Under the pieces are notes generated by a model. The model had not been told where the DNA came from, did no database searches, and saw nothing but the letters and a program-made list of their open reading frames with translations. 64,000 nt of DNA from Pseudodesulfovibrio alkaliphilus (lineage in GTDB: Bacteria; Desulfobacterota; Desulfovibrionia; Desulfovibrionales; Desulfovibrionaceae): the NCBI RefSeq assembly GCF_009729555.1, contig NZ_WODC01000010.1:1-64000 (forward strand), read 5' to 3'. The position numbers and the translations under genes were made by a program. Position 1 is the first letter of the stretch; each line of letters begins with the position of its first letter. This document shows positions 23,039 through 57,041 of this stretch, piece after piece.

Positions 23039-23070
23039 CGGCAAAAACCCGTTGCCTCGGGGTGGGCGAC
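23039..23070 (-). terminator. Possible expression-platform terminator of the B12 riboswitch
   Basis: Just 3' of the riboswitch core the minus strand reads CCCCGAGGCAACGGGTTTTTGCC, a short GC stem followed by five T residues. It could be the B12-dependent terminator, although the stem is only 4-5 bp. Confidence 0.4.
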
Positions 23071-23071
23071 T

Positions 23072-23230
23072 GACAGGTCTTCTGGCTCCCTTCCGCAAGC
23101 TCCCGGCCTTCCCGTCCGCAGAGGCGGACAGTGGCGTGGTGCAGGGGCTTGTGCCGGCCGACGATCAGGCTGGCAGGAAGGATACAGCGGCGGGTCCGCT
23201 CCGGCGTCTCACCGGATTCCCTTTCCAATC
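23072..23230 (-). promoter_or_regulatory. Cobalamin riboswitch
   Basis: On the minus strand all conserved blocks of the B12 aptamer occur in order: GGGAATCCGGTGAGACGCCGG, GCGGACCCGCCGCTGTATCC, GCCACTGTCCGC, GGACGGGAAGGCC, and the terminal GGGAGCCAGAAGACCTGTC. It lies about 120 bp upstream of cbiK and should repress the cobaltochelatase/cobalt-uptake operon when adenosylcobalamin is abundant. Confidence 0.95.
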
Positions 23231-23538
23231 TCCTATAGAGAATCAATCGCAGATGGCACTCTACACACCCTGCGGTTCCTGTCAACAGAGGCGCTCCCTC
23301 CGGGCCGCAGGCGAAGGCAGGGCTGGTTCCTGAGACGAAGATGTCGTCTGAATACGCCGCGACACTCTGGAAACAGACCCGAAAATCGGCTATGACGAAC
23401 TTGTGCGAGAACCCTGCGTTTTTGCCCATGAGCACAGTTTACGGTCATGAACACCGAGGAGCCTGATTTTCCGGTCGATTCAGTCAAGCGTGTCAGGGGC
23501 GTTCTCCTCGGACGACCGATTTGGGAAGCGAGGTGCGT

Positions 23539-45211: not shown

Positions 45212-45457
45212 AACGGCCATTTGTTGCTATTCGTGTAAAAACGAAACAATAGACACTTCATAATGTCGTGTAAAATTCTCAATTTTGTTATTTAGTACAT
45301 TTTTGAAACCATTTTTTTGAACAAAATATGTCATTCGAGCAAAACCCACCCTGGTGACCGCCGGTCACATTTATTAATTGTAATATATCCCATCCCTCTG
45401 AAATCTCGATGAATCTTTTTGTTGACAGAATTTCCTTCAGGGTGTAGCTCTTTGCCC
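45212..45457. promoter_or_regulatory. AT-rich regulatory gap between amtB and the aromatic leader
   Basis: There is no gene. It contains a perfect 15-bp palindrome GTGACC-GCC-GGTCAC (45354-45368), a possible operator, and TTGACA at 45422-45427, which could be the -35 box of the aromatic operon (a weak TAGCTC lies 17 bp downstream at 45445). If that -10 is used, the leader peptide would be translated from an almost leaderless message. Upstream activator sites for the sigma-54 promoter should also lie here, but I cannot name one. Confidence 0.45.
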
Positions 45458-45553
45458 ATGAACACCACCACCCCGGCCACCAACTCCTTTACCGTCTTTT
45501 ATTTTGGATATTGGTACAGCCGTGCGCGCGGTCTCGGGAGAGGTGTACTGTAA
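45458..45553 (+). CDS. Aromatic leader peptide for attenuation
   Basis: A 31-codon reading frame, too short for ordinary ORF calls. Codons 11-20 read [10 protein letters not shown]: three Phe, three Tyr and one Trp in ten codons, far above chance. The remainder is unremarkable (start [10 protein letters not shown], end [11 protein letters not shown]). It lies directly upstream of an intrinsic terminator and the DKFP/aro/phe/tyr/trp gene set. Shortage of any charged aromatic tRNA should stall the ribosome here and favour antitermination. An in-frame TTG at 45452 with AGGG 7 bp upstream is an alternative start. No homologue search was possible. Confidence 0.85.
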
Positions 45554-45593
45554 GCCAGGTGGTGGGTTACAACCGAAAAAAGACAAACCTCTT
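45514..45593 (+). promoter_or_regulatory. Candidate alternative pairing arms of the aromatic attenuator
   Basis: GTACA (45514-45518, over the Trp-Tyr codons) can pair with TGTAC (45544-45548), and AGAGGT (45539-45544) can pair with ACCTCT (45587-45592), which abuts the terminator stem. The second pairing would form when a ribosome stalls on the aromatic codons. The helices are short, so this fold is a hypothesis. Confidence 0.4.
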
Positions 45594-45633
45594 CAAGGGC
45601 CGCGGGCGAAAGCCGGCGGCCCTTGGTTTTTTT
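45594..45633 (+). terminator. Attenuator terminator ahead of the aromatic operon
   Basis: A 14-bp stem with one mismatch (5' arm 45594-45607, 3' arm 45612-45625) closes a GAAA tetraloop and is followed by seven T residues (45627-45633). It lies 40 bp after the leader-peptide stop and 62 bp before aroA'. Confidence 0.92.
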
Positions 45634-45695: not shown

Positions 45696-46493
45696 ATGCA
45701 TATCGGCAAAGCAATCAGACTTGAGCGCATCTTCAACCGCAACACCGGGCGAACAATTGTCGTGCCCATGGACCACGGCGTGACCGTCGGCCCCATCGAC
45801 GGACTCGTGGACATGCGCGAGGCAGTGGGCAAGGTCGTTGACGGCGGAGCCAATGCCGTCATCGAGCACAAGGGCCTTGTCCGATGCGGCCACCGCGCCA
45901 CCGGACGCGACATCGGCCTCATCGTCCACCTCTCCGCCTCCACCACCCTCTCCCCCTTCCCCAACGCTAAAAGTCTCGTCGCCACAGTGGAAGACGCCAT
46001 GCGCCTCGGTGCCGACGCAGTCTCCATCCATTGCAACCTCGGAGACGAAACCGAATCGGCCATGCTTGCCGATTTCGGCAAGGTCGCCTCGGAGGCAGCC
46101 AACTGGGGTATGCCGCTTCTGGCCATGGTCTACGCTCGCGGCCCCAAGGTCAGCGACGAGTACGCCCCGGCGGTGGTTGCCCACTGCGCCCGCGTGGGCA
46201 CCGAGCTGGGCGCGGACGTGGTCAAGGTGTGCTACACCGGCGACATGGAGTCCTTTGCCAAGGTCTGCGACGCCTGCTGCGTGCCCATCGTCATCGCGGG
46301 CGGACCCAAGCTTGACAGCACCAAAGCGTTCATACAGATGGTGCATGATTCCCTCAAGGCCGGTGGGGCAGGACTTTCGGTGGGCCGCAACGTCTTCCAG
46401 CACGACAACCCCACCCGCCTGGTCGAAGCGCTGAACATGGTCGTGCACCACGACGAGAGCGTCGAGGCCGCCCTGGCGCACATCAACATGTAA
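45696..46493 (+). CDS. 2-amino-3,7-dideoxy-D-threo-hept-6-ulosonate synthase (DhnA-type aldolase)
   Basis: A 265-residue class I aldolase of the archaeal-type DKFP pathway, which builds the dehydroquinate precursor from a deoxyketohexose phosphate and aspartate semialdehyde instead of [20 protein letters not shown] opens the barrel, [12 protein letters not shown] follows, and the Schiff-base lysine is in [26 protein letters not shown] is the phosphate end. The ATG at 45696 has GGAG upstream; the longer frame runs back through the terminator and is rejected. It is adjacent to dehydroquinate synthase II, as in other organisms with this route. Confidence 0.92.
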
Positions 46494-46508: not shown

Positions 46509-47492
46509 ATGAAATCCATCATCTTCAAAGCCATTCCCTTTGACAAGACAGCGCTCACCCTGGCCCTGGAGTCGGGTGTTGACGGAATCATGGTCGAGGC
46601 GGAACAGGTGGCCGCGGTCCAGGCCCTTGGCCGGGTCTCGGTCATCACGCCTGAGGACATGCCCGCCATCGCCCTGAACAGGAAATCCGACGAGGAAGAG
46701 GCTGTGGGGCGCATCAGGCAGGGGGAGAACATTCTCCTGGCCAAAGGCTGGGAAATCATTCCGGTGGAAAACATCCTGGCCCAGGTGGACACCCTGGCCC
46801 TGGAATGCGAGAATCATGATCGGGCGGTCCTTGCCGCCGGCATCCTGGAGCGCGGCTGCGACACCATCGTGGTCCTGCCCGAGGGCGCGGCTGACTTGAA
46901 ACGCATCGTCTCCACCCTCAAACTCTCCCAGGGCACCATGGAACTTGAAACCGCCACCGTCACAGCCATCGAACCCACCGGCCTCGGTCACCGCGTCTGC
47001 GTGGATACCATCTCCGTGCTCAGGCGCGGCCAGGGAATGCTTGTGGGCAACTCCAGCGCCTTCACCTTTCTGGTTCACGCCGAGACGGAGTCCAACCCCT
47101 ATGTGGCCGCAAGGCCCTTCCGGGTCAATGCGGGCGCTGTCCACGCCTACACCCGAATGCCCGGCGACAAGACCACCTATCTTGAGGAGCTGGCCGCCGG
47201 GACCGACGTTCTCATCGTCGGCGCGGACGGCTCCACCTCCCTGGCCACCGTGGGCCGGGTCAAGGTCGAAATCCGCCCCATGTTGCTCGTCACAGCAGAG
47301 GTCAGGAGCAAGGACGGCAACCGTCAGGGCCAGGTATTTCTGCAAAACGCGGAAACCATCCGCGTGGTCAGCGACAAGGGCGATCCCGTTTCCGTGGTCT
47401 CCCTCAAGGTCGGCGACAAAATCCTGGTCAAGACCGATGAGGCCGGACGCCATTTCGGCATGCGAATTCAGGAAGACATCAAGGAATCCTAG
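46509..47492 (+). CDS. 3-dehydroquinate synthase II (AroB')
   Basis: A 327-residue NAD-dependent enzyme that oxidatively deaminates and cyclises the DhnA product to 3-dehydroquinate. The family features EPTGLGHRVCVDTISVL, GQGMLVGNSSAFTFLVHAET and RPFRVNAGAVHAYTRMPGDK are all present. It is unrelated to classical AroB. It follows the aldolase by 15 bp. Conversion of dehydroquinate to shikimate needs genes outside the window. Confidence 0.94.
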   Translation: MKSIIFKAIPFDKTALTLALESGVDGIMVEAEQVAAVQALGRVSVITPEDMPAIALNRKSDEEEAVGRIRQGENILLAKGWEIIPVENILAQVDTLALECENHDRAVLAAGILERGCDTIVVLPEGAADLKRIVSTLKLSQGTMELETATVTAIEPTGLGHRVCVDTISVLRRGQGMLVGNSSAFTFLVHAETESNPYVAARPFRVNAGAVHAYTRMPGDKTTYLEELAAGTDVLIVGADGSTSLATVGRVKVEIRPMLLVTAEVRSKDGNRQGQVFLQNAETIRVVSDKGDPVSVVSLKVGDKILVKTDEAGRHFGMRIQEDIKES

Positions 47493-47681: not shown

Positions 47682-48785
47682 ATGAAAGACACCATCGACA
47701 CAGACGACACGCCCGACCTGGGCGAGTTGCGCGACAGGATCGACCGGATCGACCGGCAGATCGTGGACCTGCTCAACCGCAGGGCAGAGGTAAGTCTCGG
47801 CGTGGGCCGCTACAAGGCTGCGCGTCATGAGCCCATATACATGCCCTTTCGCGAACAGGAGGTGCTCAACAAGATCGCCCAGTCGAGCCCGGGACCTCTG
47901 CCCGACAAGCACCTGCGCACCATCTATCGGGAGATCATGAGCTCCTCGCGCCATCTGCAGCGACCCGAGCGCGTGGTCTATCTCGGCCCCGAGGGCACCT
48001 TCTCCTATTTCGCGGCCATCGAACACATGGGCAGCGCCGCCGACCTGACACCCAAGAACAACTTTGAGGAAATCTTCCGGGCCGTGGCCGAAGAAGGTGC
48101 AGAGCTAGGCGTCATCCCGCTTGAAAACTCCATCGAAGGCACCGTGGGCCAGGTTGTGGACCTGTTCATGAAATACACGGTCCACATCCAGGCCGAGGTC
48201 TTCAGTCGCATCAGTCACTGCCTCATCTCCAACGCCGCGCACATTGAGGATGTTGAGGTGGTCTACTCCCATCCCCAGCCCCTTGGCCAATGCCGCGACT
48301 GGCTGCGCAACAACCTGCGCGATGTCCCCACCATCCCCATGGAATCCACGGCCGAGGCCGCCAAGACCGTGGCGGACAAAAAGGCCACCGCCGTGGTAGG
48401 CCACGCCAAACTGGCCGACATGCACGGCATGAACGTCCTGGCCCAGTCCATCGAGGACATCCCGGACAATTGGACCCGGTTCCTGATCATCGGGGCCTCG
48501 CCATCCAGGGAGAACAAGCGCGACAAGACCACCCTGCTCTTCACCCTGCCCGACAAGCCCGGTGCATTGGCCAGGGTGCTGACCACCATCGCCCATCAGT
48601 CCATCAACATGACCAAGCTGGAATCGCGTCCTTTCCGGGGCGAAAAATGGAAATACGTCTTCTTCACCGACCTCGAATGCGATCTGAGCAAGGCCAAGTA
48701 CGAGGAAGTGCTGGAAGATATCAGGCAACAATGCCACACCCTGCGGGTGCTCGGCACCTACCCCACCCAGGAGGAAAGGCCATGA
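47682..48785 (+). CDS. pheA: Bifunctional chorismate mutase / prephenate dehydratase
   Basis: A 367-residue enzyme that takes chorismate to phenylpyruvate. Residues about 12-95 are an AroQ mutase (LRDRIDRIDRQIVDLLNRRAEV). The dehydratase domain starts at VVYLGPEGTFSYFAA and includes GVIPLENSIEGTV and the catalytic threonine in DNWTRFLIIG. A C-terminal ACT domain (TTLLFTLPDKPGALARVL, then ESRPFRGEKWKYVFF) should give phenylalanine feedback. The start is 47682; the stop overlaps aroA by 4 bp. Confidence 0.95.
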   Translation: MKDTIDTDDTPDLGELRDRIDRIDRQIVDLLNRRAEVSLGVGRYKAARHEPIYMPFREQEVLNKIAQSSPGPLPDKHLRTIYREIMSSSRHLQRPERVVYLGPEGTFSYFAAIEHMGSAADLTPKNNFEEIFRAVAEEGAELGVIPLENSIEGTVGQVVDLFMKYTVHIQAEVFSRISHCLISNAAHIEDVEVVYSHPQPLGQCRDWLRNNLRDVPTIPMESTAEAAKTVADKKATAVVGHAKLADMHGMNVLAQSIEDIPDNWTRFLIIGASPSRENKRDKTTLLFTLPDKPGALARVLTTIAHQSINMTKLESRPFRGEKWKYVFFTDLECDLSKAKYEEVLEDIRQQCHTLRVLGTYPTQEERP

Positions 48786-50140
48786 GCCAAGCCGCTGTCA
48801 CCGTCACCGCACCACCGTCCAAGTCCCTGTCGCACCGCACGCTCATCGCCGCCGCCCTGGCAGACGGCACTTCCGAGATCAGCGGCGCTCTGGACAGCGA
48901 CGACATCACCCGCACCCGGGACTGCCTGACCGCCTGCGGGGCGACCATCGAGGAGCGCGGCGACATGCTCGTGGTGACGGGTATGAAGAACGGCCCGGCA
49001 GGTGGCAATGCCGACGGCAAGCACAAGGACGAGCCCCCGGTCCAACTCTTCATGCACGAATCCGGCACCACCTGCCGGTTGATGACCGCCGTGGCTGCCG
49101 CCGGACGCGGCGCCTTCAGGATTCACGGCGCACCCCGCATGCACGAACGGCCCATGGCCGAACTGACCGATGCCCTGGCAGCCCTCGGTGCCGCATTCTC
49201 CTTTGAGGCCGAGCCGGGACATCTCCCCTTTGTCATGACCACCAAGGGATATTCCGGGAAACAGGTCGGGATCACCCTGGAGGAAAGCAGTCAGTACCTT
49301 TCGGGCCTGCTCCTGGGGGCCCCCCTGGCCGAACGCGAAACAGTCATCAACATCTCCGGCCAAAAGGCCGTGTCCTGGCCCTACGTGGCCCTGACCCTGC
49401 GCATCATGGAGGATTTCAAGGCCGGATTCGAGGTGGAAATCCGAAAAGAGGACGGATGGCATCCCGTTCCCTGGCGTTCTGTCAAGGTCGTAAACCCCGG
49501 AGCGGTCCGCTTTATGGTCAAACCCACCGGGTACCGGCCCGCCCACTACCGCGTGGAGGGCGACTGGTCCAATGCCAGCTACTTCATGGCGGCCGGGGCG
49601 GTGGGCAGACTGCCCGTGCTGCTCAAGGGACTGGTAGCCGATTCGCTCCAGGGCGACAGGGCCATCATGGACATCTTAAGCCAGATGGGCGCGACCATAA
49701 AGGTCTCCTTCGACGGCATCGAGGTTGCGCCTGGCCCCCTGCGCGGTATCGAGATCGACATGGGCCGCTGCCCGGACCTGGTGCCCACCGTGGCCGCTGT
49801 GGCCGCCTTTGCCGCAACGCCCACCACCATCACCAATGTGGGCCATCTGCGCATCAAGGAGACCGACCGCCTCGCGGCCTGCGCCAAGGAACTGGCCCGC
49901 ACCGGCTGCCGTACCAGCATCACCGACGACACCCTCTTGATCAGGCCGGGGCTGCTGCCCCGCGACAAGACCGTGGAGTTCACCACCTACGGCGACCACC
50001 GCATGGCCATGTCCATGTCCCTGTTCACCCTGGCCGGGGCGGACGCCGTCCTTGACAACCCGGCCTGCGTCGGCAAATCATTCCCGGGCTTCTTCGACCA
50101 ATGGGCCACCATTGTCGAAGCCAACCGGACAGCCCTGTAA
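48782..50140 (+). CDS. aroA: 3-phosphoshikimate 1-carboxyvinyltransferase (EPSP synthase)
   Basis: Transfers enolpyruvate from PEP to shikimate-3-phosphate. PPSKSLSHRTLIAAALADG binds substrate, ESGTTCRLMTAVAA is the GNAGTxxR-region equivalent, and LRIKETDRLAA and TYGDHRMAMS are C-terminal signatures. The glycine-rich GNAGT motif reads ESGTT, so this is a divergent EPSPS class. Length is 452 aa. The start is fixed by the ATGA overlap with pheA; the longer frame from 48290 is a pheA shadow. Confidence 0.93.
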   Translation: MSQAAVTVTAPPSKSLSHRTLIAAALADGTSEISGALDSDDITRTRDCLTACGATIEERGDMLVVTGMKNGPAGGNADGKHKDEPPVQLFMHESGTTCRLMTAVAAAGRGAFRIHGAPRMHERPMAELTDALAALGAAFSFEAEPGHLPFVMTTKGYSGKQVGITLEESSQYLSGLLLGAPLAERETVINISGQKAVSWPYVALTLRIMEDFKAGFEVEIRKEDGWHPVPWRSVKVVNPGAVRFMVKPTGYRPAHYRVEGDWSNASYFMAAGAVGRLPVLLKGLVADSLQGDRAIMDILSQMGATIKVSFDGIEVAPGPLRGIEIDMGRCPDLVPTVAAVAAFAATPTTITNVGHLRIKETDRLAACAKELARTGCRTSITDDTLLIRPGLLPRDKTVEFTTYGDHRMAMSMSLFTLAGADAVLDNPACVGKSFPGFFDQWATIVEANRTAL

Positions 50141-50155
50141 CCGCGAGACCAGTGC

Positions 50156-50932
50156 ATGAATCCTTCGGGCATCCAGACCATCGCCATCGTGGGCGCCAAG
50201 GGCCAGATGGGGACGCTCTTCAGCCGGGACTTCGCCGCGCTGGGATGCGCGGTGTCTCCCCTGGACCGGCCGCTGACCGACCAGTCCATCCGCGCCGCCC
50301 TGACCGGCTGCGACCTCCTCCTGCTCTGCGTGCCGGTCACAGCCATGGACGCGGTGCTGGACCGCGTCGCGCCGCACCTTGCGCCACCCGCCATCCTCTG
50401 CGACGTGGGCTCGGTCAAAATGCTGCCCGTCAAGGCGATGCTCGACCGCTACGACGGCCCTGTGGTGGGCACCCACCCCCTCTTCGGCCCGGTCATTCCC
50501 GAGGGGTTCGAGCCGCGGGTGGCCGTGGTTCCCGGCCGCGATACCGACGCCGACACCGATGCCGCCCGCGCTGTGGCCGACCTGTTCAGCGCATGCGGCT
50601 ACACCAGTTTTCCCTCCACAGCCGAAGAACACGACAAGGCCATGGCCATCATCCAGGGCCTCAACTTCACTTCCACCGTGGCTTTCCTGGCCGCTGCCAG
50701 GGATGTCGATTCCATCGAAAACTACGTTACCCCGTCCTTTCAGCGCAGACTCGACGCAGCCCGCAAAATGCTCACCACAGACACCGAACTCTTCGAGGCC
50801 ATCTCCGAGGCCAATCCTTTCCTCCAGGAGAGCAACCGCAAGTTCATGTCCTACCTGAGCCTCGCCGCCGGGGGCGATCTGGACCTGCTCGCCGAAAGGG
50901 CGCAGTGGTGGTGGCGTAACGAATCATATTAG
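50156..50932 (+). CDS. tyrA: Prephenate dehydrogenase
   Basis: A 258-residue NAD(P)-dependent enzyme of tyrosine synthesis. The N-terminal Rossmann motif is IAIVGAKGQMGTLF (GxxGxxG), DVGSVK follows near residue 87, and THPLFGP contains the catalytic histidine. No ACT or mutase domain is fused. Its TAG stop touches a repeat that can fold with the downstream terminator, so translation here may influence read-through into trp. Confidence 0.92.
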   Translation: MNPSGIQTIAIVGAKGQMGTLFSRDFAALGCAVSPLDRPLTDQSIRAALTGCDLLLLCVPVTAMDAVLDRVAPHLAPPAILCDVGSVKMLPVKAMLDRYDGPVVGTHPLFGPVIPEGFEPRVAVVPGRDTDADTDAARAVADLFSACGYTSFPSTAEEHDKAMAIIQGLNFTSTVAFLAAARDVDSIENYVTPSFQRRLDAARKMLTTDTELFEAISEANPFLQESNRKFMSYLSLAAGGDLDLLAERAQWWWRNESY

Positions 50933-51015
50933 GGGTGCGGCTTGCAAAGCCGGACGCGCACTTGCGTACACGCAACGAAGGCCGCACCCCGACAAGGGTG
51001 CGGCCTCATTGTTTT
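50932..51015 (+). terminator. Terminator with competing antiterminator arm between tyrA and trpE
   Basis: Element B, GGCCGCACCC (50980-50989), pairs perfectly with C, GGGTGCGGCC (50996-51005), followed by TCATTGTTTT. Element A, GGGGTGCGGC (50932-50941), can pair equally well with GCCGCACCCC (50981-50990). A:B and B:C exclude each other. A starts at the last base of the tyrA stop. A small TTGCG-TACA-CGCAA hairpin lies between A and B. Confidence 0.65.
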
Positions 51016-51411: not shown

Positions 51412-51460
51412 TTCAACGGTGCAACATTGACCATAACGACGACATCACGAGGGAGTGACG

Positions 51461-52918
51461 ATGCAGAAGATACAATTGACGCAGCACGGGAAGTGGCTCC
51501 CGGCAGACGTGCAGACGACCATCAGCCTATACATGGGGCTGGTGGGCAACCAGCCTGGGATATTGCTTGAGAGCGCCGAGGTGGATGGCCGGTTGGGCCG
51601 GTACAGTCTGATCGCCTGGGATTACCGGATGATCCTCCATCCGGTAGACGGCAAACTGGTGGTGGAAACCACAGACGAGCGGCTGGAGCCGCTCAAGAAA
51701 TTCGCCGGGACCGACTATATGACCGGGCTAAAGCAGGTAATCGCCAGCCTGCGTGTGGCCCAGGAGACTTCGGGGGGCAAGGCCCGCGACACCCTTCCCG
51801 GCTTGACGCGGGGGCTATACGGCTATTTCGGCTACGGCGTGGCGGGGATGTTCGAGCGCAAACTGAAAGACGTGTGCAGACCGAAGGACGCCGAGGCGTG
51901 CCTGGTGCTGCCGGGGCAGATGGTGCTATTCGACCATCTGCGCCATTCATGCTGCTATCTGAGTCTGGACGAGGGGGCCACGCCGACGCCTGCCCCCGTC
52001 CAATGGGCCACGGACCTGAAGGCCCCTGAGGTGGGGACGCCCGAGGTCCGTCCAGGGCGGATGGCGTACATGGCCGGGGTGGAAAAGTGCAAGGAGCTGA
52101 TCGCCCAGGGCGAGTGCATCCAGGTGGTGCTTTCCACCCGGTTCACCGTACCTGTGCCTGACGACCCGTTCCGCATTTATCGGCGGCTGCGTCAGGCCAA
52201 CCCGTCACCCTTCATGTTTTACATGAAATTCCCGGACTGCGCGTCCATGGGCAGAACGTGCGGCACCACCCTGCTCGGTTCGTCGCCGGAGATGATGGTC
52301 CGCTGCGCTGCCGGGCGACTGGAAGTCCGGCCCATCGCGGGCACCCGCTGGCGGGGCGAAACCGAGAAGGAGGACATGCGCCTTGAGGCCGAACTGCTGG
52401 CCGATCCCAAGGAACGGGCCGAGCATGTCATGCTGGTGGACCTGGGCCGCAACGATCTTGGCCGCATCTCCAAGCCGGGCACGGTCACGGTGGAGAAATT
52501 CATGAATGTCGAGCGTTTTTCCCACGTCATGCACCTGACCTCGTATGTGGAAGGGGAGTTGAAGGACGGGCTGGACGGCGTGGACGTGCTCCAGGCCACC
52601 TTCCCTGCCGGGACGCTTTCGGGTGCGCCGAAAATCCGGGCCATGGAGATCATCGCGGAAACCGAGCCCCAGGAGCGCGGCCCGTATGGCGGCTGCATCG
52701 GCTGGATGGGGCTGGACGAGGGCGTGGTCAACCTGGACACAGGCATCACCATCCGCTCCATGTGGATACGAAACGGCGTGTGCCACTGGCAGGCCGGGGC
52801 CGGAATCGTCTACGACTCCGACGCCGAGGCCGAATGGAACGAATGCCACAACAAGGCGCGAGTGCTGCTGGACGTGATTACCGGCAAGGGAGGCACCGAT
52901 GTTTTTGCTGATCGATAA
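51461..52918 (+). CDS. trpE: Anthranilate synthase component I
   Basis: Makes anthranilate from chorismate and ammonia. The tryptophan feedback site LLESAEVDG is near residue 34. The chorismate domain includes LGSSPEMMVRC, RPIAGTRWRGE, HVMLVDLGRNDLGR and TLSGAPKIRAMEII. Length is 485 aa. GGGAG precedes the ATG at 51461. It overlaps trpG by 20 bp, implying coupled translation for complex assembly. Confidence 0.96.
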   Translation: MQKIQLTQHGKWLPADVQTTISLYMGLVGNQPGILLESAEVDGRLGRYSLIAWDYRMILHPVDGKLVVETTDERLEPLKKFAGTDYMTGLKQVIASLRVAQETSGGKARDTLPGLTRGLYGYFGYGVAGMFERKLKDVCRPKDAEACLVLPGQMVLFDHLRHSCCYLSLDEGATPTPAPVQWATDLKAPEVGTPEVRPGRMAYMAGVEKCKELIAQGECIQVVLSTRFTVPVPDDPFRIYRRLRQANPSPFMFYMKFPDCASMGRTCGTTLLGSSPEMMVRCAAGRLEVRPIAGTRWRGETEKEDMRLEAELLADPKERAEHVMLVDLGRNDLGRISKPGTVTVEKFMNVERFSHVMHLTSYVEGELKDGLDGVDVLQATFPAGTLSGAPKIRAMEIIAETEPQERGPYGGCIGWMGLDEGVVNLDTGITIRSMWIRNGVCHWQAGAGIVYDSDAEAEWNECHNKARVLLDVITGKGGTDVFADR

Positions 52919-53471
52919 TTTCGACTCCTTCACCTTCAACCTGGTGCAGGCTTTTCAGGTGCTGGGGGCCGAGCCGGTGGTCATCCGCAACGACAAGAAC
53001 AAGGTACTCGCCCTTGCCGAAAGCGGCCGACTCACCCGCGTCTGCCTCTCGCCCGGCCCGAGCAACCCGGAGAACGCCGGGCACTGCCTGGAGTTTCTGA
53101 AGCGGCTCCCGGCCCGGGTGCCTGTGCTGGGCGTATGCCTTGGCCATCAGACTCTGGGGCATTTTGCGGGCGCCCCGGTGGTCCGTGCCGAGCGTATCAT
53201 GCACGGCAAGACCTCACTGGTTCACCACCAGGGCGCTGGAATATTCGCAGGGCTTCCCAACCCCTTTGAGGTCTGCCGCTACCACTCGCTGCTTGTCCCG
53301 GCCGAAAAGGCGGCGGATGTCCTGGAGGTCACGGCCCGCACCGACCGGGGCGAGGTCATGGGCCTGGCGTACCGCGACAGACCGTGGTTCGGTGTGCAAT
53401 TCCACCCCGAATCCATCCTGACCCCGCATGGTCCGAAAATACTCAAAAACTTCCTGAGCGTGGAGGGATAA
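52899..53471 (+). CDS. trpG: Anthranilate synthase glutamine amidotransferase component
   Basis: A 190-residue class I amidotransferase supplying ammonia to TrpE. IDNFDSFTFNL is the N-terminal signature, the nucleophile is in GVCLGHQTLGH, and the His-Glu pair is in VQFHPESILTPHG. It is separate from trpD, unlike the fused forms of enterics. Confidence 0.96.
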   Translation: MFLLIDNFDSFTFNLVQAFQVLGAEPVVIRNDKNKVLALAESGRLTRVCLSPGPSNPENAGHCLEFLKRLPARVPVLGVCLGHQTLGHFAGAPVVRAERIMHGKTSLVHHQGAGIFAGLPNPFEVCRYHSLLVPAEKAADVLEVTARTDRGEVMGLAYRDRPWFGVQFHPESILTPHGPKILKNFLSVEG

Positions 53472-53475
53472 CGCC

Positions 53476-54489
53476 ATGACCGTCACTGTATCCGAAATAC
53501 TCGAGCTGCTGGCCCGCCGGGAGTCCCTGACCGACGAGCAGGCCGGGCTCATGTTCTCCGAGATGATGAGCGGCAACCTGACCGAAGGACAGATCGGCGC
53601 CTTTCTCATGGGCCTGCGGACCAAGGGGGAGGACTCCACGGACCTGGCTGCCGGCGTCCGCGCCGGGCTGGCGGTAGCGGTCAGAATCCCCGGCTTCGAC
53701 GGCAGCCGCGAGGAGCCGGTCATAGACACCTGCGGCACGGGCGGCGACGGCCAGTGCAGCGTCAACTGCTCCACCGCCGTGTCCCTTTTCCTGGCCGACA
53801 TGGGCCATACCGTGGCCAAGCACGGCAACCGCGCCCTGTCCTCATCGTGCGGTTCGGCCGACGCGCTGGAAGCCCTCGGGGTGCCGCTGGAGCAGACGCC
53901 CGAGGAGGCGGCCAGGAGCCTTGAGGAGCACCACTTCGCCTTCCTCTTCGCTCCGGCCTACCATCCGGCCTTCAAGCACGTCATGCCGGTTCGCCGCCAG
54001 CTCGGCATCCGCACCCTGTTCAACCTCATGGGCCCGCTGCTCAACCCGGCCCGCCCATCGCACCAGCTACTCGGCGTGGGCGCACCCGACAAGCTCCACC
54101 TCATGGGCGAGACCCTGCTGCTGACAGGCGTACGCCGCGCCCTCATCTTCGCCGGAGCGGGCGGTTTCGACGAGCTGACCACCTGGGGCGTCAACCGGGG
54201 CTACCTGATCAACGACGATGTCATGGAAAAGATCACTGTCAATCCCGAGAAACTCGGTTTCGCTCCCCATGCGCCCGAGGACGTGCGCGTCGGCGGCAAG
54301 GACGATGCCGTGGCCAAACTACGCGAAGTCCTCGCGGGCACCGGCCCCAGGGCCATGATGGACATGGTTGCCCTCAATCTGGCAGGGTGCCTCCACCTTC
54401 TCGACCAAGGCACCATGCGCGAATGCGCGGACATGGCCAGAGACATTGTTAACAACGGACTTACCAAGGGAATCCCCAATGCTGGATAA
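53476..54489 (+). CDS. trpD: Anthranilate phosphoribosyltransferase
   Basis: Adds phosphoribose from PRPP to anthranilate. IDTCGTGGDGQCSVNCSTAV binds PRPP, KHGNRALSSSCGSAD and RTLFNLMGPLLNPARP are conserved, and DELT lies near residue 235. Length is 337 aa. It overlaps trpC by 11 bp. Confidence 0.96.
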   Translation: MTVTVSEILELLARRESLTDEQAGLMFSEMMSGNLTEGQIGAFLMGLRTKGEDSTDLAAGVRAGLAVAVRIPGFDGSREEPVIDTCGTGGDGQCSVNCSTAVSLFLADMGHTVAKHGNRALSSSCGSADALEALGVPLEQTPEEAARSLEEHHFAFLFAPAYHPAFKHVMPVRRQLGIRTLFNLMGPLLNPARPSHQLLGVGAPDKLHLMGETLLLTGVRRALIFAGAGGFDELTTWGVNRGYLINDDVMEKITVNPEKLGFAPHAPEDVRVGGKDDAVAKLREVLAGTGPRAMMDMVALNLAGCLHLLDQGTMRECADMARDIVNNGLTKGIPNAG

Positions 54490-55249
54490 ATTCAGGCAAG
54501 CCAAGCAAAAAGAGATCGAAAGCCTGCGCAAGGACTTCATGGAGGGCCGCGTGCCCGCCGTGTACCAGAACGGGCGCCCATCCTTCACCGAGGCCATCCG
54601 GGCCAAGGGACCGGGCGCGGTCATCGCCGAGTTCAAGCCTTCGAGCCCCAGCCAAGGCGTCATCCGAGAACACGCCAACCCATTGGATTTTGCGGATATA
54701 TATGCAGCGAACGGCGCAGCCGCCATCTCAGTCCTCACCGAACACGTCTACTTCGGCGGCCATCCCGACTACCTGTTCATGATGAAGGGGCCGGGCCTGC
54801 CGCTCTTGCGCAAGGACTTCATCTTCGACCCGCTCCAGGTGGCCATGACCGCGTCCAGCCCGGCCTCGGCCGTGCTGCTCATCGCACGCATGTTCGCCTC
54901 TGCCGCGGAACTCAAGCAACTGGTGGATCTGGCACGCATGCCCGGCCTGGCCCCGGTGGTGGAAATATTCGACCAAGCGGACCTGGACACGGCCCGCCAA
55001 GCCGGAGCGGACATCATCCAGGTCAACAACCGCGACCTGGACACCCTGACCACCACTCTGAACCAAAGCCGCTCCTTCATCCGGCAAAAACGCGATGGCG
55101 AGCTGTGGATCAGCGCCAGCGGCGTGTCGACCCGCGCACAGGTGGAGGAGATGGCCGCCCTCGGCTTCGACGCCGTGCTCATCGGCACCAGCCTGATGCG
55201 GGCCGACGACCCCGGCCGTCTGCTGGCCGAACTGACGGGAAGACTCTGA
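54479..55249 (+). CDS. trpC: Indole-3-glycerol-phosphate synthase
   Basis: A 256-residue TIM barrel closing the indole ring. VIAEFKPSSPSQG carries the catalytic Lys/Glu region, LRKDFIFDPLQV the second lysine, and VNNRDLDTL and SASGVSTRAQVEEM the phosphate end. The start ATG at 54479 lies within trpD and the stop shares a base with the trpF start. It is not fused to trpF. Confidence 0.95.
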   Translation: MLDKFRQAKQKEIESLRKDFMEGRVPAVYQNGRPSFTEAIRAKGPGAVIAEFKPSSPSQGVIREHANPLDFADIYAANGAAAISVLTEHVYFGGHPDYLFMMKGPGLPLLRKDFIFDPLQVAMTASSPASAVLLIARMFASAAELKQLVDLARMPGLAPVVEIFDQADLDTARQAGADIIQVNNRDLDTLTTTLNQSRSFIRQKRDGELWISASGVSTRAQVEEMAALGFDAVLIGTSLMRADDPGRLLAELTGRL

Positions 55250-55875
55250 TGTCCCGACCCCTGATCAAAATCTGCGGCATGACCCGCATGGAGGATGTCC
55301 GCCTGTGCGTATCCCTGGGCGCGGACCTGCTCGGGTTCATCTTCCACGCGGCCAGCCCGCGCCGGGCCGCCCCGGACTTTGTCGCCTCGGTCAAGACCGG
55401 CCGCGCCGTCAAGGTGGGGGTCTTCGTCCACCAGTCCGCCGACGAGGTGATCGAAATCATGGACCGCTGCGGCCTGCACGCCGCCCAGCTGCACGGCGGG
55501 CAGGACATGGCCTTCTGCGAGGCCGTGGGACCGGACCGGGTCATCCGCACCTTCTGGCCCGAGACCTACGCCTCGCCCGAGGCCCTGCTGCGCGACATGG
55601 AAAACCACGCCGAAGTCTGCGGCCATTTCCTCCTCGACGCAGGCGGCAAGGGCCAGGGCGGCACGGGGCAGTCCATTGATTTCGGAATCCTGCAACACAT
55701 TGAAATACAAACACCCTGGTTCCTGGCAGGAGGCATTGGCCCGAACAATATCGACGCCGCTCTGGCCCTGAATCCCCCGGGCCTGGACATCAACTCCGGC
55801 GTGGAAAGCCAACCTGGAATCAAGGACAATAGCAAACTGCAAGCGGTCTTCGACCGGATCGACAAGGTAAGATAG
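55249..55875 (+). CDS. trpF: Phosphoribosylanthranilate isomerase
   Basis: A 208-residue TIM barrel. KICGMTRMEDV contains the catalytic cysteine, FHAASPRRAAPDF follows, the general-acid aspartate is in LLDAGGKGQGGTGQ, and LAGGIGPNNI and DINSGVESQPGIKD bind phosphate. The start is at 55249, overlapping the trpC stop by one base; the longer frame from 55105 is a trpC shadow. trpB begins 2 bp after the stop. Confidence 0.95.
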   Translation: MSRPLIKICGMTRMEDVRLCVSLGADLLGFIFHAASPRRAAPDFVASVKTGRAVKVGVFVHQSADEVIEIMDRCGLHAAQLHGGQDMAFCEAVGPDRVIRTFWPETYASPEALLRDMENHAEVCGHFLLDAGGKGQGGTGQSIDFGILQHIEIQTPWFLAGGIGPNNIDAALALNPPGLDINSGVESQPGIKDNSKLQAVFDRIDKVR

Positions 55876-55877
55876 CC

Positions 55878-57041
55878 ATGAAAAAAGGATACTTCGGCGA
55901 TTTCGGCGGCCAGTTCATCCCAGAGCTGCTCATGCCGCCCCTTCTGGAGCTTGAGCAGGCCATGCAGGCCATCCTCCCCAGCGAGGCATTCCAGAGCCGC
56001 TTCACGGCCATGCTCAAGGAAAACGTGGGCCGCCCCTCGGCCATCACCCACTGCCCCAACCTCTCGCGAGACCTGGGGCTCGACCTCTGGCTCAAGCGCG
56101 AGGACCTCAACCACTCGGGCGCACACAAGATCAACAACACCCTGGGCCAGGGGCTGCTGGCCAAGATGATGGGCAAGACCACCCTGCTGGCCGAGACCGG
56201 CGCGGGCATGCACGGCGTGGCCACAGCCGTGGCCGCCGCCATGCTCGACATGAAGTGCCTCGTCTACATGGGCGCCACCGACGTGGTCCGCCAGGCCCCC
56301 AACGTCAACCGCATGCGCCTCATGGGCGCGGAGGTCGTGGCCGTCGAGTCCGGCACCAAGACCCTCAAGGACGCCATCAACGAGGCGCTGCGGCGCTGGC
56401 TCTCGGACCAGGAAACCACCCACTACTGCTTCGGCACCGCCGCCGGGCCGCACCCCTTCCCCACCCTGGTGCGCGAGTTCCAGCAGGTCATCTCGCGCGA
56501 GGCCCGGCAGCAGTTCCTGGAGCGCAACAACAACCGCCTGCCCGACGTGGTCGTGGCCTGCGTGGGCGGCGGCTCCAATGCCATCGGCATGTTCCACCAC
56601 TTCGTGCCCGATCCCTCGGTGAGCATCGTGGGCGTTGAGGCTGCAGGCACAGGCGAACCCGGCTGCGACAACTCCGCCCCGCTCAACCTCGGCACCGACG
56701 GCATCCTGCACGGCATGAAGACCAAGCTGCTCCAGTCCCCCCAGGGCCAGATCCTGCCCTCGCACTCCATCGCGCCCGGCCTCGACTACCCCGGCGTGGG
56801 CCCCGAACACGCCCACCTGCACGCCACCGGCCGCGCCACCTACGTAACCATCAACGACGCCCAGGCCATCAACGCCTTCATGACCCTCTCCCGGCGCGAA
56901 GGCATCATCCCGGCGCTGGAATCGTCCCACGCCGTGGCCTACGCCATCGAGCATTGCGCCCAACTCAAGGGCAAGTCCGTCCTCGTCTGCCTCTCGGGCC
57001 GCGGCGACAAGGACATGGCCATCGTCGATTCCATCCTTTAG
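55878..57041 (+). CDS. trpB: Tryptophan synthase beta chain
   Basis: A PLP enzyme joining indole and serine. YFGDFGGQFIPELL opens the protein, the PLP lysine is in HSGAHKINNTLGQ, ETGAGMHGVATA and GGGSNAIGMFHHF bind substrate and phosphate, and SGRGDKDM is at the end. Length is 387 aa; it is the standard TrpB1 type. Confidence 0.97.
   Translation: MKKGYFGDFGGQFIPELLMPPLLELEQAMQAILPSEAFQSRFTAMLKENVGRPSAITHCPNLSRDLGLDLWLKREDLNHSGAHKINNTLGQGLLAKMMGKTTLLAETGAGMHGVATAVAAAMLDMKCLVYMGATDVVRQAPNVNRMRLMGAEVVAVESGTKTLKDAINEALRRWLSDQETTHYCFGTAAGPHPFPTLVREFQQVISREARQQFLERNNNRLPDVVVACVGGGSNAIGMFHHFVPDPSVSIVGVEAAGTGEPGCDNSAPLNLGTDGILHGMKTKLLQSPQGQILPSHSIAPGLDYPGVGPEHAHLHATGRATYVTINDAQAINAFMTLSRREGIIPALESSHAVAYAIEHCAQLKGKSVLVCLSGRGDKDMAIVDSIL

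Follow-up and report, generated by a model that had tools for sequence, protein, structure and literature searches.

The segment between positions 45458 and 45633 of the Pseudodesulfovibrio alkaliphilus window (64,000 nucleotides, the whole stretch of DNA that we analysed) is very probably a ribosome-mediated transcription attenuator, and the codon content of its leader and of related leaders makes it likely that one leader peptide senses charged tRNA-Phe, tRNA-Tyr and tRNA-Trp. We further propose, with somewhat less assurance, that the attenuator is a swappable cassette in which a core of promoter, antiterminator and terminator has been copied with duplicates of aroA' while the sensor codons alone were rewritten (Phe, Tyr and Trp at the operon, almost only Phe before one isozyme, and Tyr runs before another), with a Trp-run leader at separate trp operons; attenuation alone, probably from leaderless mRNAs, would then give isozyme-by-isozyme feedback. 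The leader region contains the following elements:

45422-45427, plus strand: -35 box TTGACA, a perfect match, at -36 from the leader ATG.
45445-45450, plus strand: putative -10 box TAGCTC, after a 17-nt spacer, a weak match to TATAAT.
45458-45553, plus strand: leader peptide frame of 31 codons, ATG at 45458 and TAA at 45551-45553, kept in relatives.
45488-45517, plus strand: sensor codons 11-20 of the leader (F11, F14, Y15, F16, Y18, W19, Y20).
45523-45544, plus strand: antiterminator 5' arm, within leader codons 22-29, from the fold and covariation.
45587-45608, plus strand: 3' arm of the antiterminator, shared in part with the 5' arm of the terminator; base 45604 is the partner of leader base 45527.
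45594-45633, plus strand: intrinsic terminator from the fold, with its stem at 45594-45625, a GAAA loop and seven T at 45627-45633.

In the mechanism that we infer (translation, stalling, start of transcription and individual amino-acid responses included), RNA polymerase would start at or near the leader ATG, and translation of the leader would begin right at the 5' terminus of the transcript. Were any one of the three tRNAs uncharged, the ribosome would halt within codons 11-20, leaving 45523-45544 free to pair with 45587-45608, and this pairing would block the terminator and allow the operon to be transcribed. With all three tRNAs charged, the ribosome would reach the stop codon and cover 45523-45544, and the terminator would form.

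Re-reading of the leader gave the same 31-codon frame, the same stop at 45553 and the same seven aromatic codons in ten positions (three Phe, three Tyr and one Trp) that the first-pass annotation had described. In the leaders TTT stood at 78% and TAT at 65%, against 17% and 20% in the aroA' genes of the same loci, and such uncommon codons may help stalling. Within the window's genus, 17 leaders, several of which are almost identical, gave a nonsynonymous to synonymous ratio of 0.36 over codons 10-20.

The aroA'-aroB' region was compared in 100 Desulfovibrionales genomes, represented by one locus each, chosen from those with an aroB' match and including none of the window's genus, and in a second sample of 20 other Desulfobacterota; a usable region upstream of aroA' was present in 98 and 17 of these, respectively. 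Open frames no more than 430 nt from aroA' were scored by the number of F, Y or W residues in 12 codons. At least six of 12 were found in 96 of the 98 Desulfovibrionales; dinucleotide shuffles reached this in 6.1% and the reverse strand in 15 of 98. At least seven of 12 were found in 89 of 98, as against 0.9% of shuffles and 4 of 98 on the reverse strand. Both Desulfovibrionales exceptions had weaker candidates, a run of five in L130 and a run farther upstream in L156. For the other Desulfobacterota, 13 of 17 reached at least six of 12 (5.3% of shuffles, and one on the reverse strand). A terminator lay between the leader frame and aroA' in 142 of the 145 loci scored (median -25 kcal/mol), so that relatives possess both the aromatic-rich frame and the terminator for which the first-pass annotation had proposed to search. 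The frame, the terminator and an antiterminator exclusive with it were established by comparison among relatives.

Several loci were left out of particular counts. The comparison of codons with genes omits L083, L122, L151, L156, L173 and L179, in which the leader pick was unconvincing or aroA' was not upstream, and includes 11 rows (8 + 3) with a contig too short to judge trp genes. The promoter and terminator counts omit the same six together with L019, L020, L024, L025, L027, L028 and L043 (distant groups or a wrongly picked frame), as well as L002, L014 and L016, which are isozyme loci; an ordinary leader is visible in L028 and L043 even so. The counts of 144, 145, 142 and 127 given in this work are not fully independent because some genomes recur in L001-L059 and from L060 onward; the count of 98 is one locus per genome.

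A perfect TTGACA was present no more than 60 nt upstream of the ATG in 108 of 144 leaders, compared with 1% in base shuffles, and for the 124 leaders with at least 5/6 matches its position was -38 to -36 in 81. Shine-Dalgarno-like words preceded 40 of the 144 leaders versus 130 of the 144 aroA' genes. From the spacing of TTGACA and TAGCTC, the predicted transcription start in the window falls at 45456-45458, that is, on the leader ATG and not after 45633. A TTGACA box near -37 and the small number of Shine-Dalgarno sites therefore suggest that the leader mRNA is probably leaderless. A simple promoter scan of the window listed neither the TTGACA nor the TAGCTC promoter here. Neshat et al. in 2014 reportedly described the attenuators of Corynebacterium glutamicum as leaderless transcripts. 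According to PMC7298713, the trpL RNA of Sinorhizobium meliloti has the leader AUG at its very start and the operon is not under a repressor, whereas the leaderless start proposed here is argued from promoter position.

The terminator stem folded into 10 bp, one G.G mismatch and a further 3 bp, giving 13 pairs rather than the 14 bp announced by the first-pass annotation, whose description of the hairpin, the GAAA cap and the seven T otherwise held. A simple terminator scan did not list 45594-45633, owing to the loop or stem rule of that scan, but the folds do contain it. When everything to 45563 was masked (45458-45563) to mimic a ribosome that has reached the stop codon, the hairpin of the terminator formed (-34.1, z -4.20), and the fold of the unmasked whole leader also contained it. 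In that unmasked fold, 45465-45473 (CACCACCACC), at the leader's 5' end, can pair with 45559-45567 (GGTGGTGGG), just past the stop codon, possibly a default-off structure for a leader that is not translated.

With the 3' arm of the terminator absent (45519-45612), the best fold was instead the antiterminator, at -40.9 kcal/mol (z -3.67), formed by pairing of 45523-25, 45527-34 and 45537-44 with 45606-608, 45597-604 and 45587-594, respectively. The two hairpins are mutually exclusive, the antiterminator begins just past the sensor codons in Desulfovibrionales, and the stop codon at 45551-45553 is so placed that a terminating ribosome covers the arm at 45523-45544. The equilibrium fold of the full 45519-45632 preferred the terminator, which means that the antiterminator has to come first, as is possible in a nascent transcript.

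Across relatives, 122 of 127 Desulfovibrionales loci showed stronger pairing between the leader tail and the terminator arm of the same locus than 98% of shuffles, and when partners were swapped between species within the same 127 loci the mean duplex weakened from -29.8 to -25.1 (sd 0.27). The most telling position is base 45604, which is mismatched inside the terminator. The motif GGCCGCNGGC is present in 110 of the 127 loci, of which 105 align well without the use of that base; in all 105 scored loci the base can pair with the leader base, where 75.5% would be expected if the two were independent, and the pairs (58 A-U, 36 G-C, 3 U-A and 8 G-U) are Watson-Crick in 97 of 105 against an expected 49%. 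Since this pairing is kept, the leader residue at the equivalent of 45527 is mostly Cys, Arg or Ser. An alignment of 36 rows, with the window itself standing for L001, was picked by hand for variety from 124, and its figures for both structures are therefore illustrative only, the pairing and mismatch tests resting on the 127 loci: 93.9% of antiterminator cells were paired, compared with at most 44.9% in slid versions, 98.6% of terminator pair cells were kept, and the antiterminator covariation score exceeded all 500 shuffles, with both sides changing in only one pair. For 15 other loci (13 from other Desulfobacterota plus L021 and L030), the pairing of the Desulfovibrionales type passed in one. 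The leaders of L160-L174 and L030, elsewhere in the Desulfobacterota, often end in TGLP-like residues, and their terminators carry GCCGTGG. These leaders, without the Desulfovibrionales antiterminator, may use a different pairing partner.

Downstream of the leader lie the following genes:

45696-46493, plus strand: aroA' (ADH synthase, a DhnA-type aldolase), first gene of the operon; TIGR01949, 389.8 bits, cut-off 299.45.
46509-47492, plus strand: aroB' (3-dehydroquinate synthase II); NF002628, 558.3 bits, cut-off 508; PF01959.
47682-50932, plus strand: pheA (chorismate mutase/prephenate dehydratase; PF01817, PF00800 and ACT), aroA (EPSP synthase; PF00275) and tyrA (prephenate dehydrogenase; PF02153).
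51455-57041, plus strand: trpE, trpG, trpD, trpC, trpF, trpB and then trpA, as frames, with trpE, trpG and trpB assigned by Pfam.

NCBIfam and Pfam matches bear out the gene order given by the first-pass annotation (for the trp set, the Pfam scan covered trpE, trpG and trpB), and the aroA' of the window is 94% identical to that of P. pelocollis SB368. The DKFP-type pathway that had been named is likewise consistent with what we found: ADH synthase and 3-dehydroquinate synthase II are present, and a PF00793 search of the genome, which covered the type I superfamily, revealed no type I DAHP synthase, the sole match being a KDO-8-phosphate synthase by TIGR01362, which fits a DKFP-type entry route. 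To speak of the entire aromatic pathway was too strong, because other shikimate steps are not among the genes of the operon and because a gap with a hairpin lies between tyrA and trpE. This gap is 525 bp in the window, compared with a median of 115 nt in 65 relatives, 48 of which have no more than 150. Within it, 50979-51006 forms a terminator-like hairpin with a weak T tail, a possible insulator of the trp genes in this species. With such a gap, co-transcription of the trp genes from the leader promoter is uncertain here, and trp control is less certain in this genome.

Phe and Tyr codons were both present in all 108 leaders retained for the comparison of codons with genes, and a Trp codon was found in the leaders of all 63 operons with trp genes. 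The match is one-directional, since Trp codons (sought in a 16-residue span, which misses a Trp codon elsewhere in the peptide of L121 and L157) persist in 14 of the 24 Desulfovibrionales operons without trp genes within 13 kb, and in five of ten others. Fisher tests on the Trp codon and the trp genes ignore kinship; in a tree built from the aroB' of 87 loci, leaders without a Trp codon were confined to trp-less operons, with four to five parsimony changes and no loss of the codon while trp genes sat in the operon. Four of the 24 trp-less genomes had no trpE match (G012, which is only 83% complete, G039, G008 and G257), and all four leaders are without a Trp codon. These patterns bear on the rival reading that survives best, in which the segment is a stalling attenuator to which one or two amino acids matter, for example Phe and Tyr, the other codon being tolerated or minor. 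The single Trp codon of the window's leader and the Trp codons kept in trp-less operons favour it, as does the Tyr codon of the C. glutamicum aroR leader, reported not to matter in a review (PMC11802643), on account of which codon content does not by itself prove that all three amino acids are sensed. The constancy of Phe and Tyr codons, of Trp codons beside trp genes, and the absence of Trp-codon loss on the tree speak against it, and we regard it as improbable though deserving of attention.

Copies of aroA' outside the operon add to this picture, beginning with the two others of this genome:

G000:C2:220443-221225, minus strand: second, stand-alone aroA' (L002), with its own TTGACA, terminator and Phe-rich leader MTRNTAARFFFFSFFYRNACGLGVR.
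G000:C3:277569-278348, minus strand: third aroA' (L003), for which no aromatic leader was found.

Forty further aroA' copies comprised 25 with a Phe-type leader, two with a Tyr leader and 13 with none, and the 25 Phe-type leaders together contain 169 Phe, 15 Tyr and no Trp codons. A Tyr-type query over 20 of the 30 loci returned (the other ten being operon copies by position) recovered 16 Tyr-run leaders, one unclear case and three operon copies. For 29 isozyme leaders, a terminator was present in 24 and lacking by the same rule in five, and in all 24 the pairing of tail and terminator arm equalled or exceeded that of 98% of base shuffles. Where trpE is detached from the operon (19 genomes), a WW leader followed by a terminator preceded it in 17 and WWW in 12, compared with chance levels of 1.9% and 0.05% in shuffles and none on the reverse strand. 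Most of these detached trp leaders have a different tail and terminator and therefore probably represent a separate lineage of leader. In two detached trp operons, L220 (G005) and L236 (G056), the WW leader is accompanied by a GGCCGC-type terminator that resembles the aro cassette and is unlike those of the other detached trp leaders. Taken together, the same cassette with other codons before the aroA' isozymes and the Trp run before detached trp genes indicate that the codons of each leader are matched to the genes under its control. That Phe-only and Tyr-only leaders arise when only those amino acids are wanted also weighs against a one- or two-amino-acid sensor at the operon.

Two other readings fare worse. 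One holds that the segment is a constitutive 5' RNA with partial read-through, its frame translated without stalling control, and that a repressor or enzyme feedback regulates the pathway; nothing direct supports this, although feedback domains exist, such as the ACT domain in pheA, and it would leave unexplained why the antiterminator covaries and why codons change together with gene content, so that we give it very little credence. A search for the TrpR family (PF01371) gave no match in the genome, with its control matching in E. coli, and TrpR repression was rejected. A T-box, riboswitch or protein-binding leader with a coincidental frame would share the layout of a 5' leader and terminator, but no such element was found, the frame is conserved in 96 of 98 genomes, there is no TrpR family match, and none of the four matches from an Rfam 15 search of the whole window at the gathering threshold falls at the leader, which led us to reject a T-box or riboswitch and to judge this reading the least plausible. 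The pan-aromatic ribosome-mediated attenuator named in the first-pass annotation is in this way supported by the conserved frame, the terminator and the covarying, exclusive antiterminator.

Leader attenuation is well established, as are multivalent leaders such as those of the ilvGMEDA and thr operons of Enterobacteria. The latter resemble the present leader in that a single peptide contains codons for more than one end product of its pathway, and differ from it in using branched-chain or Thr/Ile codons and ordinary 5' UTR starts. The trpL leaders of E. coli and S. meliloti and pheL follow the same principle of terminator and antiterminator (PMC11802643 and PMC7298713), but they answer to one amino acid each and not to three. 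The closest parallel is the C. glutamicum aroR leader, Phe-Tyr-Phe, which like ours places Phe and Tyr codons before the first step of aromatic synthesis; according to the review, Phe limitation raises transcription of the downstream aroF and Tyr availability is without effect (PMC11802643). Unlike the present leader, aroR has no Trp codon and controls aroF rather than a trp-containing operon; it also belongs to a different phylum, and the product of its aroF is a DAHP synthase of the classical kind. The open-access literature, judged from listings, yielded no account of a leader with Phe, Tyr and Trp codons or of any aromatic leader in Desulfovibrio, and the accessible parts of Rodionov 2004 and of Naville and Gautheret 2010 do not treat the subject. 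What we describe is a known mechanism, ribosome-mediated attenuation, in a three-way form for which we found no open-access description.

One RNA switch that carries different sensor codons at paralogous genes, with codon sets that shift as genes join or leave the operon, is a natural experiment in the acquisition of new specificities by attenuators. The cassette, if it acts as proposed, would do for these bacteria what allosteric DAHP synthases, TyrR and TrpR do for feedback in E. coli, and it predicts, gene by gene and testably, the control of aromatic synthesis across a whole order of sulfate reducers. It further provides a system for studying the integration of three tRNA signals by a single ribosome, and the working of attenuation on a leader mRNA that lacks a ribosome-binding site. 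Elsewhere in the window, a cobalamin riboswitch was recognised by Rfam on the minus strand at 23055-23262 (82.1 bits).
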